DNA of 34,086 nucleotides, from positions 5,078 through 39,163 of the forward strand of contig NVXP01000041.1 of the NCBI GenBank assembly GCA_002733985.1, in the 5' to 3' direction. The notes under the pieces were generated by a model, which saw nothing but the letters and a program-made list of their open reading frames with translations, ran no database searches and was not told where the DNA came from. This document shows positions 4,331 to 32,730 of this stretch, one piece after another (the stretch's first letter is position 1; each line of letters starts with the position of its first letter). The stretch is from Fluviicola sp. (GTDB lineage: Bacteria > Bacteroidota > Bacteroidia > Flavobacteriales_D > Crocinitomicaceae). The translations under genes were made by a program, and so were the position numbers.

Positions 4331-6463
4331 ATGACAGATAATAATTCGAATAAAGAGAAAAAGAAAAGCCCATTTTCAGTATACTGGATCTATGCAATCA
4401 TTGGTGTTGCGCTGATCGCTTTTCAATTGTATTCTTCTTCGGGGGGATCTTCAGAAGTGCAACGGAAAGATACTTTCTTCAAGCTTGCTGAAGAGGGTGG
4501 ACTTGAAAACGTGATGATCATTAATCGATCACGCGTTGACTTCCAATTAACCGAAGATGGAGAAAAGGTAGTCGGTCGTGAGAAATCAGAAGATTTCAAC
4601 ACGATGAAAAAAGCCATGAAGAAGGGCAAAAGTATTCGTACTGTGAAACCAACCTTCTCTATGAAAATAGGTGATTTGGGTCACTTTGAAGATGAAATTC
4701 GAACGCACAACCTAAATTTGAAGGAAACTAAATCTGAAGTACCGCCTATTTCTTATGGGTACGACGAGGAAGTAAACTACATGGGTGGAATCTTAAGTTT
4801 CATTCTTCCTATTATTATCATCATTGCCTTGTGGTTATTCGTTATGAGACGTATGTCTGGTGGCGGAGGTGCTGGAGGTGCTGGTCAAATCTTCAATATT
4901 GGGAAATCAAAAGCGAAGATTTACGAAAAAGGGAAAACAACGGATACTACGTTTGATGACGTAGCAGGACTTGAAGGAGCTAAAGAAGAAGTTCAAGAAA
5001 TTGTTGAGTTCTTAAAAAAGCCGAAAAAATACACTGACCTTGGAGCGAAAATTCCGAAAGGAGCCTTATTGGTAGGACCTCCAGGAACAGGGAAAACATT
5101 GTTAGCAAAAGCCGTTGCCGGTGAAGCGCAAGTTCCATTCTTCTCGTTGTCAGGATCTGATTTCGTAGAGATGTTTGTTGGAGTTGGGGCTTCACGTGTT
5201 CGTGACCTCTTCAAGCAAGCAAAGGAAAAAGCTCCATCAATTATTTTTATTGATGAGATTGATGCGATTGGACGTGCTCGTGGAAAAAACAACAGTTTTG
5301 GATCGAATGATGAACGTGAAAACACGCTCAACCAGTTATTGACTGAGATGGATGGTTTCGGAACAAACTCTGGAGTAATCATTCTTGCAGCAACTAACCG
5401 AGCAGATGTATTGGATGATGCTTTGACGCGTGCAGGTAGATTCGACCGTCAGATATATGTTGACATGCCTGATTTGAATGAACGAAGAGAGATTTTCCAA
5501 GTTCACCTCAAGCCGATTAAATTAGTTGAGAACCTCGATGTAGAGTTCTTATCGAGGCAAACACCTGGTTTCTCAGGAGCGGATATCGCCAACCTATGTA
5601 ACGAAGCGGCGTTGATTGCTGCTCGTAAGGAAAAAAAGTTTGTTGAAAAACAAGATTTCTTAGATGCTGTCGATCGAATCATAGGTGGATTAGAGAAAAA
5701 AAACAAGATCATCACTCCAACAGAGAAGAGAGCAATTGCATTTCACGAAGCTGGACATGCAACAATCTCTTGGCTATTGGAACACGCTCACCCACTTGTA
5801 AAAGTAACGATCGTTCCTCGTGGACAATCACTTGGAGCAGCTTGGTATCTACCTGAAGAGCGAAGTATCACAACAACAGAGCAGATTCTAGATGACATGT
5901 GTAGTGCTCTTGGAGGACGTGCAGCGGAAAAATTGATCTTAGGAAAAATTAGTACTGGCGCATTGAGTGATTTGGAAAAGGTAACAAAGCAAGCCTATGC
6001 AATGGTTTCAATTTACGGATTGAACGATAAGATAGGAAACTTGTCTTTCTATGATGCTCACGGAAACAATGGTTTTACAAAGCCATATTCTGATCATACA
6101 GCTCAGGTGATTGATGAAGAAGCTAGTAAGATGATAGAGACTCAATATGCACGAGCTCTTAAAATCTTAGGTGAAAACAAAGAAAATTTGATCTTACTTG
6201 CGGATAAACTATTGGAAAGTGAAGTGATCTTCAAAGAGGATTTAATTGCTATCTTCGGTAAGCGCCCTTGGGATAAAGAAGAAACTGATGAAAAAGCAAC
6301 TGAAGTAAAATCTGATGATACAGATGCTACTCCGGAAGCTGAAGTTCCTTCTTCTGAGTCAGCAGACGAAACAAACAATGAGAAAGCAGATACGGATGGG
6401 ACTGATTCAAAACCTTCAGAGGAAATGGACAACGCTTCGGATGAAACTGGTGAAAGAACCTAA
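4331..6463 (+). CDS. ftsH: ATP-dependent zinc metalloprotease FtsH
   Basis: Membrane-anchored AAA+ protease that degrades misfolded membrane proteins and regulatory substrates. Two membrane segments (about residues 16-32 and 154-174) flank a periplasmic domain. Walker A GPPGTGKT is at 249-256, Walker B is [11 protein letters not shown], the second region of homology is [21 protein letters not shown], and the zinc site HEAGH is at 472-476. The total of 710 residues includes an Asp/Glu/Ser/Thr-rich low-complexity tail of roughly 60 residues after the peptidase domain. The last 23 bases overlap the start of the DUF2007 gene. Confidence 0.97.
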
Positions 6464-8489: not shown

Positions 8490-9179
8490 ATGCCTCGTAT
8501 CATAATCATTTCCTCGCTTGTTCTTTACATTGTATTACTCAGCTGTGAACTACACATGAGAATGCCCAGCACAGAAGGTGAATACTTCGAAGGTGAAATC
8601 GAATACGAGCTCGTCTACGAATCATTGAATCCAGATGTATCCTCGGAAGAAATCACCAAGAAAAGTACGGATAGGAAGATTCTCTATTTCAAGGGTGGAA
8701 ATTCTATGACGGAAAATTACATCAGAGACACGCTCACTTCCAGAACATGGTATGATAGATTATCGAACACAACTTATATACAGAAACTAGACTCAGACAC
8801 ACTGTACTTTTACAATTCTAGTAATGTCGATTTCATCATGGAACCTCTTCAAGAACAAACAGGAGAAATCATCCTCGGACATGCTACTCGACAAATTACG
8901 ATTGCGCTGAAGGGAAAAGATAATTCCAACTACACAGGAAGTGAAAGCCAGTTCATTTTTCACATTGCTTTAGATTTGCCAATTGACTCCATCTGGTTCA
9001 AGGACTGTCTTGAATTTGACTACAATAAAATAATGAGCCTAGCTCCGGGAATGATCCTGAAAGAAGAAGACAGTATTTATGGTTATCGAAAGCTGATCAA
9101 GAGAGCAACACGAATAGAGCATAAACCAATAGAACTTGATTTATCCATCGATTCTACCAAGGTATTGATTGAAATTTGA
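8490..9179 (+). CDS. Predicted lipoprotein, unknown function
   Basis: 229 residues with a lipoprotein signal peptide (IIIISSLVLYIVLLSC, lipobox LLSC, lipidated Cys19). The mature part is rich in beta strands: GEIEYELVYES, RKILYFKGGNSMTENYIRD, TTYIQKLDSDTLYFYN, and a closing GYRKLIKRATRIEHKPIELD. This recalls the DUF4412 / GLPGLI type of Bacteroidota exported proteins, where a reporter-like strand pattern ends in a positively charged strand, but the similarity is by eye and function is unknown. Its start lies 18 nt after a terminator, so it has its own promoter. Confidence 0.75.
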   Translation: MPRIIIISSLVLYIVLLSCELHMRMPSTEGEYFEGEIEYELVYESLNPDVSSEEITKKSTDRKILYFKGGNSMTENYIRDTLTSRTWYDRLSNTTYIQKLDSDTLYFYNSSNVDFIMEPLQEQTGEIILGHATRQITIALKGKDNSNYTGSESQFIFHIALDLPIDSIWFKDCLEFDYNKIMSLAPGMILKEEDSIYGYRKLIKRATRIEHKPIELDLSIDSTKVLIEI

Positions 9180-17601: not shown

Positions 17602-18447
17602 ATGAAACATCTTCTCCTACTAGTAACTCTATTGTTCTCGAGTTCGTTCACCAATGCTCAAGCAACAGATTCTCTAAAAGTTGTTTCATGGAATGTTTTC
17701 CTTCGACCTGGGATACTCAGAGATAAACAAGTCAAGCGTGTGGATAGCATTGCGGCTAGTTTACTACAAATGAATGCTGATGTAATCGTTCTACAAGAAG
17801 TTTTTCACAAAAAATCTCGCAGACGGTTGATTAGCGCTTTATCGAAATCCTACCCGTTTCACTCTAAAATTGGAAAGAAATCAATTTGGGGAGTTCCTTC
17901 TGGGAATTGTATTTTCTCAAAAGATAGTATCCTATCAGAAGAGTTCATTTACTTTAAACGGTCAATGAACGCCGATAAACTGGCAAAAAAAGGGGCTATT
18001 GCAGTTGAAATCAATCACTTGGGGAAATCTTTTAAGATTCACAGTACGCACCTTCAAGCTGGAGGAGGAACCGAAGGTGCTCACATTCGAACAAGTCAAC
18101 TCGATCAACTTGCTGAAATGACACGTTCAATGGGTCGACGCATAACGTCACTCTTTGCTGGGGACTTCAATATTAGACACGACGATTCCTTATTCAAATA
18201 CATTGTAAAGACATTAAACGTCACCAATCTAAACCCGGTGAATCAAAAATTGGGAACCTCAAATTTCGATGACCACACTCTAACAAGCACATCTGGCACA
18301 CCAAAATGGATTGATTTCATCTTTTTGTCTTCATACAATGGTGTTCAATATCATAGTTCACACATCGAAGAACCGCGCTGCTTTTTTAAAAAGAAGCGCG
18401 CTAGAATTTCTGATCACAATCCAATCATTACCATTTTCAGCTGGTAA
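17602..18447 (+). CDS. Secreted EEP-family phosphodiesterase, neutral sphingomyelinase-like
   Basis: 281 residues with a signal peptide (cleavage near TNAQA, residue 21). It has the endonuclease/exonuclease/phosphatase fold: N31 (SWNVFLRP), E66 (LQEVF), H151 (STHLQAGGG), D189 and N191 (GDFNI), a WIDFIFL strand and D271-H272 (SDHNPI). THLQAG and the overall spacing fit bacterial sphingomyelinase / neutral phosphodiesterase relatives better than DNA-repair nucleases, but the substrate could be a phospholipid, a phosphodiester or extracellular DNA. No T9SS sorting domain, so probably periplasmic or released. The mutS2 promoter box lies just after its stop. Confidence 0.85.
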   Translation: MKHLLLLVTLLFSSSFTNAQATDSLKVVSWNVFLRPGILRDKQVKRVDSIAASLLQMNADVIVLQEVFHKKSRRRLISALSKSYPFHSKIGKKSIWGVPSGNCIFSKDSILSEEFIYFKRSMNADKLAKKGAIAVEINHLGKSFKIHSTHLQAGGGTEGAHIRTSQLDQLAEMTRSMGRRITSLFAGDFNIRHDDSLFKYIVKTLNVTNLNPVNQKLGTSNFDDHTLTSTSGTPKWIDFIFLSSYNGVQYHSSHIEEPRCFFKKKRARISDHNPIITIFSW

Positions 18448-29003: not shown

Positions 29004-29528
29004 TCATTTTATTCTTGACATTGGGAATTTCATTGATTGCAGTTTTCCATCAACCACCCCAGATATTTGCGCTAATAGGGAATCTCCATTTATCTGGGTG
29101 TATGAGATTTGTTGAGGAAAGTCGTGTTTCAAATTTTCAAAAACCAACTGCTTATTCATCATTGATGTAAGATCAAATTTAACTGGCTTATTATTATTTT
29201 GATTCCTTACGGTTGGAGTAAATGAAAGGCGACCGCCAATTTGTGTAAGCGTAAACTCTTCATATGAAACAGTGTCAGATTCAATCACAAAATAACTCTC
29301 TCCAACATAGGTGGAATCATTCTCTTTTCTCCAGATTTCTGTGGACGACCCTTCTGATGAATTATTTTGCCATGTCCCTATTAACCAAGATGCCTTTTCT
29401 AGCTCTACATATGGGTTTGAGCCATTCACATTATCCTTTTCTTTATCTGAACCCGAGCAAGAGGCTATACTAAGAGTTAGAGTAAGCATAATGAATAGTG
29501 TACTGTTTATCTTGAATTTGAAAGTCAT
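29004..29528 (-). CDS. DUF6265-family lipoprotein
   Basis: 174 residues with a lipoprotein signal (ML TLTLSIASC, lipidated Cys24) and a single lipocalin-like domain: WLIGTWQNNSSEGSSTEIWRKENDSTYVGESYF, then QLVFENLKHDFPQQISYTQINGDSLLAQISG. The FEN-x2-HDFPQ-I-Y core is the hallmark of DUF6265. The family's ligand is unknown. Expressed from its own TAnnTTTG box; the 74 bp to the AraC stop contain that box. Confidence 0.85.
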   Translation of the reverse strand: MTFKFKINSTLFIMLTLTLSIASCSGSDKEKDNVNGSNPYVELEKASWLIGTWQNNSSEGSSTEIWRKENDSTYVGESYFVIESDTVSYEEFTLTQIGGRLSFTPTVRNQNNNKPVKFDLTSMMNKQLVFENLKHDFPQQISYTQINGDSLLAQISGVVDGKLQSMKFPMSRIK

Positions 29529-29601: not shown

Positions 29602-30432
29602 CTAATGAGGGTCGATAAAGAGAGCCGATAACCGAAGGTTTTCTGAATAAAAATATTTTGGTGTTACACCGGTAAACTCTTTAAAATCTTTTATGAAATG
29701 AGCTTGATCAAAATAACCTCCTTCATGCGCAACTTCTGTGAGACTCCCAATATTTTTATTGCTGAAAATCTTTAAAGTAGCCTGCAGTCGAATTACTTTA
29801 GAAAGTTGCTTAGGGCTTAAGCCGATTGACTTGGAAAATCGCCTTTCTAATTGCCTGCGATGAATATCACTATTAGCAGATAGGTTTTTGACAGATAGAT
29901 TTCCCTTGGAACTTAGTAGTGTTTTAACACTCAATTGTACAATTCTGTCAATCGATTCACTTTTAGTTATTTGTGCTAACAAGAATGATTCAATAATATT
30001 TATCCTTCTTTCATTGTTCTCGGCATTCAATACTTCTTGTTCAAGCAAGGCTCCATTCTTTTCAAATATTTGATGCAGAGGAATCCCTTTGTTTTCAATT
30101 TCACTTAATGCTAACGTACAAAAGGGAGTGAAACCCTCGGGATGAAACCGCACAGCAATGATCCCTGTGTTCCCCGTGGGTTCAATATCAAGGGCTCTCG
30201 TTACCTGTCCGAAAACAAAACATCGAGGTTGGATGATATAATTTTCGCCTTCCAGGTATTGTTTGTACAAATCACCATAGTGAAAAATCATTTCAACGCA
30301 ACCGTCTGGAATAATTCTTTGTTTCTCAATCAACGAACCATCTAATGTCCAATAACACTTGATGAACGCTTCGAGCTTAGAACTTGGCGAAATTGTCTGG
30401 TACTTCAATTTTATATAAATATTTGACGGCAA
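29602..30432 (-). CDS. AraC-family transcriptional regulator
   Basis: 276 residues. The N-terminal half (IKCYWTLDG, RIIPDGCVEMIFHYGD, FVFGQVTRALDIEPTG, IIAVRFHPEGFTPF) is the DUF6597-type sensing domain common in Bacteroidota AraC proteins. The C-terminal ~100 residues contain two HTH motifs, with SANSDIHRRQLERRFSKSIGLSPKQ and the signature LTEVAHEGGYFDQAHFIKDFKEFTGVTPKYF. There is no ATG before residue 47: the frame opens with TTG at 30430, and a second TTG at 30408 gives MKYQTISPSSKLEAF, closer to family starts. A stop codon sits just upstream, so a TTG start is required. Confidence 0.85.
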   Translation of the reverse strand: MPSNIYIKLKYQTISPSSKLEAFIKCYWTLDGSLIEKQRIIPDGCVEMIFHYGDLYKQYLEGENYIIQPRCFVFGQVTRALDIEPTGNTGIIAVRFHPEGFTPFCTLALSEIENKGIPLHQIFEKNGALLEQEVLNAENNERRINIIESFLLAQITKSESIDRIVQLSVKTLLSSKGNLSVKNLSANSDIHRRQLERRFSKSIGLSPKQLSKVIRLQATLKIFSNKNIGSLTEVAHEGGYFDQAHFIKDFKEFTGVTPKYFYSENLRLSALFIDPH

Positions 30433-30443
30433 TAGTCAGTTAC

Positions 30444-30521
30444 CACTAACGTTTAGCATATACCAAGTAGCTCGGTAGAAATCGATAAATATTCGAGTTT
30501 TCACTGAGCTAAACCGTTGTG
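30444..30521 (-). repeat. attC-like imperfect inverted repeat, site 1
   Basis: Left arm 30444-30457 (CACTAACGTTTAGC) and right arm 30508-30521 (GCTAAACCGTTGTG) pair at 13 positions with one extrahelical T (30447) and one extrahelical C (30514 or 30515). The 50-nt middle folds into a second imperfect hairpin around TCGATAAATATTCGA. On the minus strand it starts 18 nt after the DUF1330 stop and ends just before the AraC frame, with a GTTAG core at its far end. Confidence 0.55.
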
Positions 30522-30539
30522 TTTTTCTTACAAATTTAT

Positions 30540-30827
30540 TTAAATTCCGTCGATAATTATTGCGTTTGTATTCGCTCCTTTATTTCTTAATTCAGTCGCT
30601 TTTCTATAGTCCTCAGAATTCCACCAATCGTTTGCAATTTCATAACTTGGAAACTCAATTATCACAACTCTTTTCGGATTCCAATTCCCTTCAACGATAT
30701 TGGGTTCACCTCCACGAACGATTATTTTCCCTCCAAATTTCTTGATGATTTCTGGAGCTATGTTTTTATATTCTTGTAATTTTTCTACGTCAAATATTTC
30801 TAAATCTAGTATTGCGTATGCAGACAT
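30540..30827 (-). CDS. DUF1330 protein
   Basis: 95 residues covering one complete DUF1330 domain (dimeric alpha/beta barrel related to EthD/NIPSNAP): AYAILDLEIFDVEKLQEYK, then FGGKIIVRGGEPNIVEGNW, PKRVVIIEFPSYEIANDWWNSEDYRKATELR and a closing NAIIIDGI. The fold usually binds small hydrophobic or cyclic compounds; no substrate can be named. It is the only gene between two attC-like repeats in the same orientation, the arrangement of a mobile gene cassette. Confidence 0.9.
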   Translation of the reverse strand: MSAYAILDLEIFDVEKLQEYKNIAPEIIKKFGGKIIVRGGEPNIVEGNWNPKRVVIIEFPSYEIANDWWNSEDYRKATELRNKGANTNAIIIDGI

Positions 30828-30852
30828 TGTTTTTTTGTTTAAGGTGAGAATT

Positions 30853-30952
30853 GCTAACGTGGTTTAGCTATGAATGATTGCCCACGAATAAAGAATTTCT
30901 TATTCGACAATACTTTATATGTATTACACCGCTCAAGGTTAGACCGACGTGC
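30853..30952 (-). repeat. attC-like imperfect inverted repeat, site 2
   Basis: Left arm from 30853 (GCTAACGTGGTTTAGC) pairs with 30937-30952 (GGTTAGACCGACGTGC) with extrahelical bases on both sides (TA at 30855-30856, G at 30946) and three GT pairs. The centre holds an inner hairpin CGAATA / TATTCG (30885-30906). It ends 25 nt before the DUF1330 start, and on the minus strand it ends in the same CGTTAG core as site 1. Confidence 0.5.
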
Positions 30953-31033
30953 GCAGTTTCACCGTGCTTTTGTTTTTTACAACTAACAATAATCATTCTA
31001 GCGAGAATTAATTTTCGAAGTAAAAATGAAGCA

Positions 31034-31070
31034 CTTGTACTGAGCCTGCCGAAGTATGCAGTTTAGGCAG
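31034..31070. repeat. Dispersed-repeat-like segment
   Basis: On the minus strand ATACTTCGGCAGGCTCAGTA resembles the ACTTCGACAGGCTCAGTAC type of short repeat scattered in many Bacteroidota genomes. CTGCC / GGCAG in the same segment can form a small hairpin. Copy number cannot be seen from one window. The remaining sequence from 30953 to 31033 is AT-rich with no gene. Confidence 0.4.
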
Positions 31071-31091
31071 TCTTATAGTATGTTTTTGATG

Positions 31092-31967
31092 TTATTCTGA
31101 TATGAAATTTTCAATCTCTTTAATTGTTTCTTTTGTTTTTTCTTCTTGTATAAAATGGCCACAGTCAAACTCTTTTACTTCTGCATTTGGCAAACGTTCT
31201 TTCCATTTTTTCAAATACTCCGTGGTGATAAATTCATCTTTTGTACCCCATAGAATGAGCCAAGGTTTTTGTGTCAATTTATCCAAATCCTCCCATTGTT
31301 CTTGATACCAATCTGATGAACCAACTAATGATTTTCCAATGTTCAACAGCGCAAACCGAGAAGATTTACTTGGGAATGGATATATGTATTGTTTATGATT
31401 TTTTTTTGATAACTGTTTCTTGTCATAAATTCCTTTCTTCAATAAGAACTTGGGCGAAAAATTCATTCTTAAGTATAGAAATTCACCAATTCTACTATTG
31501 ATTATTTTATCTACTTTTTGTGCTGTTGGATTGCTTTTCGTTTCCCAAAGCCACGTATTAAACATAACTACTTGTTTGATATTATCGTGATTCTGAATCG
31601 CCGAAGAAAGACCTATTGGTCCACCAAAATCATGCACTACAATTGTTATATTTTTAAGCTTAAGTTTTTCTATAAACTCAGTTATATTTTTTGAATGAGA
31701 CTGTGGCTTTCCATCGAAGTTTTCAGGTTTTTCAGATAAACCAAAACCTATATGATCAATTGCTATGCATCGATGTCTTTTTGATAATTCAGCGACATAT
31801 TCTCTATAAAGAAATGACCAAGTGGGCGTACCATGTATGAATAAAATAACATCTCCTTTTCCTTCATCAACATAATGCATTTTCCCTGCATTTAACCGGA
31901 TATATTTATTTTTGAAAGGATATTGGTCGGTATCTAACCATTGTTGTTCTCGTGCAGACAAACTCAT
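31092..31967 (-). CDS. Haloalkane-dehalogenase-like alpha/beta hydrolase
   Basis: 291 residues with the alpha/beta-hydrolase triad: nucleophile D113 (VVHDFGGPIGL), acid in LWGTKDEFI and base His in DCGHFIQEE. The oxyanion segment HGTPTWSFLYR and the lid region are like the haloalkane dehalogenase / epoxide hydrolase branch. In true dehalogenases the residue after HG is Asn and the residue after the nucleophile Asp is Trp, together holding the halide; here they are Thr and Phe. An Asp nucleophile fits dehalogenase or epoxide hydrolase chemistry, but halide removal is doubtful. Cytoplasmic, no signal peptide. Confidence 0.85.
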   Translation of the reverse strand: MSLSAREQQWLDTDQYPFKNKYIRLNAGKMHYVDEGKGDVILFIHGTPTWSFLYREYVAELSKRHRCIAIDHIGFGLSEKPENFDGKPQSHSKNITEFIEKLKLKNITIVVHDFGGPIGLSSAIQNHDNIKQVVMFNTWLWETKSNPTAQKVDKIINSRIGEFLYLRMNFSPKFLLKKGIYDKKQLSKKNHKQYIYPFPSKSSRFALLNIGKSLVGSSDWYQEQWEDLDKLTQKPWLILWGTKDEFITTEYLKKWKERLPNAEVKEFDCGHFIQEEKTKETIKEIENFISE

Positions 31968-32055: not shown

Positions 32056-32616
32056 TCAAATTCTTACTTTTCCGAGTAGTTTGCTAAAGTTGCTAGGGTC
32101 AATTCTGAGATAAGATGCAATGTCTTTATGTGGTACCATTTGAAGTAAATGAGGACTTCTTGTTGTGAAATTTCTAAACCGAGTTTCTATATCATATGCC
32201 ATCAATTCGAAATAGCGATTCAGCGTATCAATTAGTAAAAATTCAGTCGCTTTTCTAAATAATGTCTCAATCGACCTATGTTTTGACATTAACTCTTGGT
32301 GTTTTTTAAATGATATTCGTATGAATTTACTTTCCGTAATTGTCGCTAAAAAATAGTTGGAAGGAGTCTGATTCAAGAAGGATTCAGGGATTCCAGAAAA
32401 AGAAGGTGAATAAGTAAAGGCTATAATATGTTCCTTGTTATTGTTTGAGTAAAATGATTTTTGAATTCCACTAAGCACGAAATACATGTAGCGTTCTGTA
32501 TCTCCTTTCCAAGTTATTATGGTGTTTTTGGGAACAGAGTATTCTGTCCAATTAGAAATGTATTCTTCCAGTATATCATTTTCTACGGTGTGTATTTTCG
32601 AGAGGAATTCTTTCAT
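32056..32616 (-). CDS. Crp/Fnr-family transcriptional regulator
   Basis: 186 residues. Cyclic-nucleotide-binding-like jelly roll (~1-115: VPKNTIITWKGDTERYMYFVLSGIQKSFY, then IPESFLNQTPSNYFLATITESKFIRIS) and a C-terminal winged helix (SPHLLQMVPHKDIASYLRIDPSNFSKLLGKVR). No Fe-S cysteine cluster. Bacteroidota proteins of this size usually act as single-gene regulators with an unknown ligand. A GTGT-N6-ACAC element lies 33-47 nt upstream of its start and a perfect palindrome lies between it and the hydrolase, so it may control itself and the hydrolase. Confidence 0.88.
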   Translation of the reverse strand: MKEFLSKIHTVENDILEEYISNWTEYSVPKNTIITWKGDTERYMYFVLSGIQKSFYSNNNKEHIIAFTYSPSFSGIPESFLNQTPSNYFLATITESKFIRISFKKHQELMSKHRSIETLFRKATEFLLIDTLNRYFELMAYDIETRFRNFTTRSPHLLQMVPHKDIASYLRIDPSNFSKLLGKVRI

Positions 32617-32649
32617 TTTTGTAATGTGCTACAACCTTTTGTGAAAAAT

Positions 32650-32663
32650 GTGTTTTAATACAC
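32650..32663. promoter_or_regulatory. Crp-like half-site pair upstream of the Crp/Fnr gene
   Basis: GTGT, 6-nt spacer, ACAC, similar in layout to the Crp consensus TGTGA-N6-TCACA. A TACATA / TATGTA inverted repeat follows at 32666-32681. Possible autoregulatory site. Confidence 0.35.
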
Positions 32664-32730
32664 TTTACATAGGGTTATGTACTTTCTATGTTTTCTATTA
32701 ATTCTTCCTGTTTAGGATAAAAAAAACTAC

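Follow-up and report, generated by a model that had tools for sequence, protein, structure and literature searches.

What is a small gene of the DUF1330 family doing near the end of a contig of Fluviicola sp. (Bacteroidota; Crocinitomicaceae), among genes of the same strand and directly ahead of a folded, repeated element? The DNA in question, called the window throughout, is a stretch of 34,086 nucleotides from a draft genome of 5.09 Mb in 174 contigs with an estimated completeness of 99.99% (GenBank assembly GCA_002733985.1; our genome G000); it covers positions 5,078 to 39,163 of contig NVXP01000041.1 (G000:C52:5078-39163), and its right end coincides with the end of the contig. A reading made from the letters alone, hereafter the sequence-only reading, had proposed that the gene lies between two same-orientation sites resembling the attC sites of integrons and forms a gene cassette, the sites perhaps being non-canonical and of a Bacteroidota type. 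The idea has largely stood, its details only in part: we put the probability at roughly 80% that the end of the window (~29.0-32.7 kb, minus strand) holds a small cluster of cassettes with no recombinase of its own, part of an integron-type, non-canonical system. Site families, their layout in arrays, the edges of their conservation, the linkage of recombinase genes to palindromes and arrays, and the covariation of that palindrome are directly observed; the sporadic occurrence of the genes carried points the same way.

Sites on either side of the DUF1330 gene

The DUF1330 gene, the putative cargo of the cassette, was correctly recognised from the sequence: it occupies 30540-30827 (minus strand) and encodes 95 amino acids that match Pfam PF07045 at E 2e-31. 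The attC-like site downstream of it, site 1 (30447-30520, minus), begins 19 nt past the stop codon and belongs, in shortened form, to a site family of Bacteroidota, its conserved part terminating at CGTTA (30451-30447), where the next unit begins. The sequence-only reading had described this site with outer arms of about 13 pairs; the site itself is real by family homology and by fold, and its outer arms amount to ~10 pairs (AACG-g-TTTAGC with GCTAAA-CGTT). The fold beats 199 of 200 shuffles (z -2.98). Fold alone is nonetheless weak evidence, because outer AAC/GTT arms pair equally well at four of the 562 GTTR positions in the window; outer-arm pairing as a sole criterion does not single out site 1 and was rejected. 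It is homology, not fold, that we take as decisive. As had been anticipated, the boxes depart from the canonical RYYYAAC/GTTRRRY, site 1 having GTTAGTG.

The homology is extensive. A search of 240 family genomes with the pattern AACGNTTTRGCTNAGTG yields 21 matches, spread over 16 of them, compared with five for a reversed control pattern. The copies share the layout AACGnTTTRGCTCAGTG ... CTAAACGTTA and run on to ...CTACTTGCCATATACTAAACGTTA, beyond which they part immediately into different genes. Sequence conservation in this family of sites extends across genera. Site 1 is shorter than most copies, which start with YAACACNGTATATAGCAAATAGGGC ~190 nt upstream of their end, and this start is able to pair with their 3' end; site 1 lacks the YAACACNGTATATAGCAAATAGGGC 5' part, and its short form retains a pairing of its own. 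A model built from the 3' part of the family finds site 1 in the window at E 3.5e-18, with site 1 itself in the training set, and finds six further copies in the source genome at E<1e-4, some of them also training members (three on contig C150 and one each on C148, C37 and C111). Rfam returned no match. Two simpler counts were set aside: occurrences of AACGTTAG within the window alone are no evidence (chance 0.9), and genome matches of AACGTTAGYNNNAA, 17 against 12 for the control, are hardly above a chance pattern.

The upstream side of the gene is less clear-cut. In the gap between an alpha/beta hydrolase gene and DUF1330, a sequence model of the genome's second, long type of site (described below) matches 31034-30929 with E 2.4e-4 for the window and 0.035 genome-wide, marking a degenerate core at 30929-31034 (minus) whose full extent may be 30853-31083; DUF1330 is therefore flanked by two same-orientation site-like elements, the upstream one degenerate. 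The second site drawn by the sequence-only reading, at 30853-30952, did not survive in that form: its fold is ordinary (z -1.84) and the claimed arms are absent. What is left of it outside the core (30853-30928, minus) ends in CGTTAGCAATT just ahead of DUF1330 and is without a supported fold of its own. The CGTTAG core ascribed to both sites is borne out as letters, with site 1 ending in CGTTA and CGTTAG standing at 30859-30854, and unsupported as part of a fold on the upstream side; its position just before DUF1330 leaves room for an upstream site that is degenerate or composite. A REP-like motif, CTTCGGCAGGCTCAGTACAAGTGCT, also lies in this gap, at 31030-31054 (minus).

Read along the minus strand, the order is alpha/beta hydrolase, gap, DUF1330, site 1, an AraC-type regulator and a lipoprotein-like gene. 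The regulator (29602-30432, minus; DUF6597 and HTH_18 domains) starts 14 nt past site 1, and the lipoprotein-like gene (29004-29528, minus; DUF6265) is the second member of a recurrent pair, so that the earlier description of the surroundings as unrelated single-gene units was inexact. This pair occurs behind three different sites, in the window, on contig C131 of the same genome and in another genome (G071), where it stands behind another attC-like end; the AraC-type relative on C131 is a gene of a cassette array and is 47% identical to the window copy. The DUF1330 gene is present in only four of the 240 family genomes, its closest other copy being 39% identical. Both the recurrent pair and the sporadic DUF1330 gene fit cassette exchange.

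Further upstream, the alpha/beta hydrolase gene (31092-31967, minus) is probably the cargo of the preceding unit, and a Crp-like regulator with a cNMP-binding domain (32056-32616, minus) probably belongs to the same unit. Before the Crp-like gene lies a candidate third site of degenerate short type (32620-32679, minus; AACCCTATGTAAAGTG-TATTAAAA-CACATTTTTCAC...GTTG, fold z -0.7), a suggestive but unproven element that would bring the hydrolase unit into the cassette cluster.

Site arrays in the source genome and its relatives

The source genome contains about 50 related sites. On contig C131 (locus L041), plus-strand genes are separated by repeats of ~130-150 nt with TAAC-like starts and ...AAACGTTA ends, different in sequence from the site-1 family. 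The model of the long type, made from ten copies, uses sequence only, because consensus folding yielded no pairs; it gives 59 matches in the source genome, 50 of them at E<1e-3 (including the 10 training sequences), with a maximum of 12 on one contig (C120). When both site types are pooled, a gene on the same strand precedes 42 of the 50 sites that could be checked and follows 41 of 49. Contigs C37 and C111 carry both types, and C131 has only a weak match to the site-1 type.

The arrangement is seen most fully in a complete, single-contig relative (G004), in which a recombinase gene is followed within 24 kb by ~30 near-identical sites of ~190 nt, nearly all intergenic and separating genes that are mostly on the same strand. 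The conserved block starts near YTAACA and stops at GTT, beyond which there are only short conserved boxes; conservation thus falls off immediately past GTT and ahead of YAAC, with the result that different copies adjoin different genes. In the inner stem, one variable position holds G-C in ten and C-G in seven of 21 sites (17 of 21 paired). Among the boxes of this array (L081, L082) are a conserved A-A-T box 8-10 nt past GTT and an invariant 5-nt box 11-7 nt ahead of TAACA, which suggest that the recombinase may make contacts outside the AAC/GTT ends. Another genome (G567) has a shorter set with five strong site copies; in two more (G463 and G535) there are same-strand gene runs in which no repeats were detected at the threshold used.

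Short attC-like hairpins of ~60 nt form a further class, found at L041:10218-10278, L010:818-880, L017:1442-1512 and, in Natronoflexus pectinivorans, near position 12302 of L216. Their arms vary, the loop CATTAAAA is conserved, AAC and GTTR stand at the flanks, and they are common to distant Bacteroidota; two such short sites fold at z -3.4 and -5.7.

The recombinase and a candidate attI site

A tyrosine recombinase is encoded inside the C131 array (L041:7547-8692). Many genomes of the family encode relatives at 54-79% identity, as do named Flavobacteriales and further Bacteroidota (Winogradskyella, Arenibacter, Aquimarina, Psychroflexus, Zunongwangia, Aequorivita and others); at E<1e-90, relatives are present in 17 of 396 class-level genomes, the source genome included. 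Residues that correspond to the R-K-H-R-H-Y catalytic set of tyrosine recombinases are conserved. In NCBIfam the protein scores just above the XerA cut-off and below that for integron integrases (191 bits vs 265). Its alignment to the integron integrase IntI4 (2A3V) falls into two pieces, with ~29 residues where IntI4 has ~72; the IntI-specific insertion (the I2 or patch III region) is thus missing, as it is from the array-linked enzyme of the complete genome. Some 90 extra N-terminal residues have no Pfam match. In a structure comparison restricted to the recombinase core (residues 104-376), an AlphaFold2 model (mean pLDDT 79, pTM 0.47) matches XerA, IntI4 and XerH. By these comparisons the enzyme is XerA/IntI-like. 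The IntI-type recombinase that the sequence-only reading had proposed to look for did not turn up, no protein of the source genome exceeding the TIGR02249 cut-off, and the recombinase of the array is a related enzyme; the other short tyrosine recombinases of the genome are likely XerC and XerD.

Recombinase gene and array run in the same direction both on C131 and in the complete genome. In draft genomes the gene is often no more than a few hundred bases away from the end of its contig (e.g. L053-L055, L064, L067, L068), as expected if repeated sites break assemblies. A second member of the enzyme family in the source genome (G000:C9:62687-63793; L042) is 40% identical and resembles the first in its N-terminal extension; ~0.6 kb downstream of it, near the contig end, there is a hairpin site, GGCTATACTTC...GAAGTATAGCCTTTAACGTTA.

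Shortly past the recombinase stop codon, a palindrome followed by GTTR recurs from locus to locus: with centres selected for best pairing, 46 of 48 scored loci reach at least 7 of 12 paired positions and 42 reach at least 9. Its arms covary, with all four base pairs found at several dyad positions. Shuffles of the same stretch rarely reach the observed score in most loci, and do so commonly in a few. Two identical 39-nt copies are present in L041, one after the recombinase (8698-8736) and one behind the AraC-lipoprotein pair (17836-17874). We regard the palindrome as a candidate attI-like site, of a form unlike known attI sites.

Alternatives, known systems and a possible mechanism

Several points weigh against reading the end of the window as a cassette cluster. 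The upstream site is weak; there is no recombinase on the contig of the window; and the link between the site-1 type and the recombinase rests on the genome and contigs that this type shares with the long type. RNAalifold gave no consensus fold for the long sites. Palindrome scores are optimistic, since the centres were picked to maximise pairing. For the comparison of strains that had been proposed as a check, neither an empty site for the DUF1330 unit nor a pair of strains with and without it was found among the 240 family genomes.

What else could produce such a locus? If site 1 were a transcription terminator or regulatory hairpin and DUF1330 an ordinary resident gene, a hairpin shortly after a stop codon would fit; however, no T-run follows site 1, the members of its family share their sequence from genus to genus, have CGTT as their end and stand ahead of unrelated genes, and DUF1330 itself is sporadic, so we hold this explanation to be very improbable. 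REP-like or transposon-derived intergenic repeats, moved by a transposase and only incidentally linked to a recombinase, would account for several site types scattered over many contigs and for the separate REP-like motif within the upstream region. Strict orientation of the sites relative to genes, sharp edges that join different genes and a 30-copy array that begins right at the recombinase argue against them, and make this a distinctly improbable account. A canonical integron, with ordinary attC sites and a true IntI unseen in the draft genome, shares the AAC/GTT ends, the array layout and the logic of cassettes, and true integrons, though rare in Bacteroidota, do occur, for example in Salinibacter ruber (PMC9024848; IntegronFinder 2 names a single complete integron in Bacteroidetes proper). 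Against it stand the failure of any protein to pass the curated IntI cut-off in so nearly complete a genome, array-adjacent enzymes without the IntI insertion even where the genome is finished, sites that deviate from the 7-mer consensus and a recombinase gene in the orientation of its array; we consider it improbable.

The cassette cluster that we favour nonetheless resembles integrons, including sedentary chromosomal integrons and clusters of attC sites lacking integrases (CALIN), in its one-orientation arrays of mostly single-gene units, each ending in an AAC ... GTT site, and in an insertion site, here the attI-like palindrome, adjoining the gene of a tyrosine recombinase. Vibrio integrons likewise have near-identical sites within one genome, and the integrase-less cluster in the window is comparable to a CALIN. 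It differs in several respects: the recombinase has an additional domain at its N terminus and no IntI insertion, the attI-like site is a palindrome, the recombinase gene runs with the array where the usual arrangement is divergent, and the sites miss the full RYYYAAC/GTTRRRY (GTTAGTG, GTTAGCA, GTTATGC and similar) and are often longer (~190 nt). Without the integrase insertion, full attC boxes or a divergent integrase gene, the system is not an integron proper.

Other systems of Xer-type enzymes offer partial parallels. In both profile and structure comparisons, the core of the recombinase comes nearest to archaeal XerA, and XerH, which acts at the palindromic difH, also matches; a palindromic site likewise adjoins the recombinase gene here, whereas Xer/dif systems include neither cassette arrays nor attC-like sites. 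In the pdif modules of Acinetobacter plasmids, genes lie between short dif-like sites of 28 bp and host XerCD is used. Genes between recombination sites of a Xer-type enzyme are common to both, but the present sites are long (60-190 nt), are in the same orientation and come with a dedicated additional recombinase. The enzymes could be insertion-less members of an ‘integron-like’ subgroup of simple tyrosine recombinases defined in a survey whose available sections hold the insertion essential for integron function and describe no cassette arrays for insertion-less members (PMC8138268). Single-strand recombination by IntI1 has been attributed to its I2 insertion, whose acquisition is held to have enabled integron integrases to recombine folded sites, with intermediates lacking (PMC7790495). 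In the literature searched, outside which lay preprints and most subscription journals, no integron-like system of Bacteroidota or Flavobacteria with a non-IntI recombinase was found.

How might such a cluster arise? Each cassette would consist of one or two genes and a 3' site that starts with (Y)AAC and ends with CGTT(A), its ends able to pair. Cassettes would be collected beside the attI-like palindrome just downstream of the XerA/IntI-like recombinase, encoded elsewhere (on C131), which would join palindromic and cassette sites at GTT and so line up new cassettes after the gene that encodes it; clusters that lie away from the recombinase, such as that of the window, would result when other sites are occasionally used or when the DNA is rearranged. 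Action of the recombinase on the cassette sites, a folded single strand as its substrate and the exact cut are what we infer from the sequences. On balance we think it probable, with less assurance than for the cluster itself, that this is a Bacteroidota class of cassette-collecting system in its own right, an integron in function, whose XerA/IntI-like recombinase never acquired or has lost the IntI insertion, whose attI-like site is palindromic and whose attC-like sites are recognised in another way, perhaps through the unnamed N-terminal domain, the DUF1330 unit being one of its cassettes.

If this is true, a dedicated recombinase without the insertion, linked in many Bacteroidota to attI-like and attC-like sites, would represent either an evolutionary intermediate or an independent solution to the recombination of folded sites, and tools that require IntI would be missing a large reservoir of mobile genes in this phylum.
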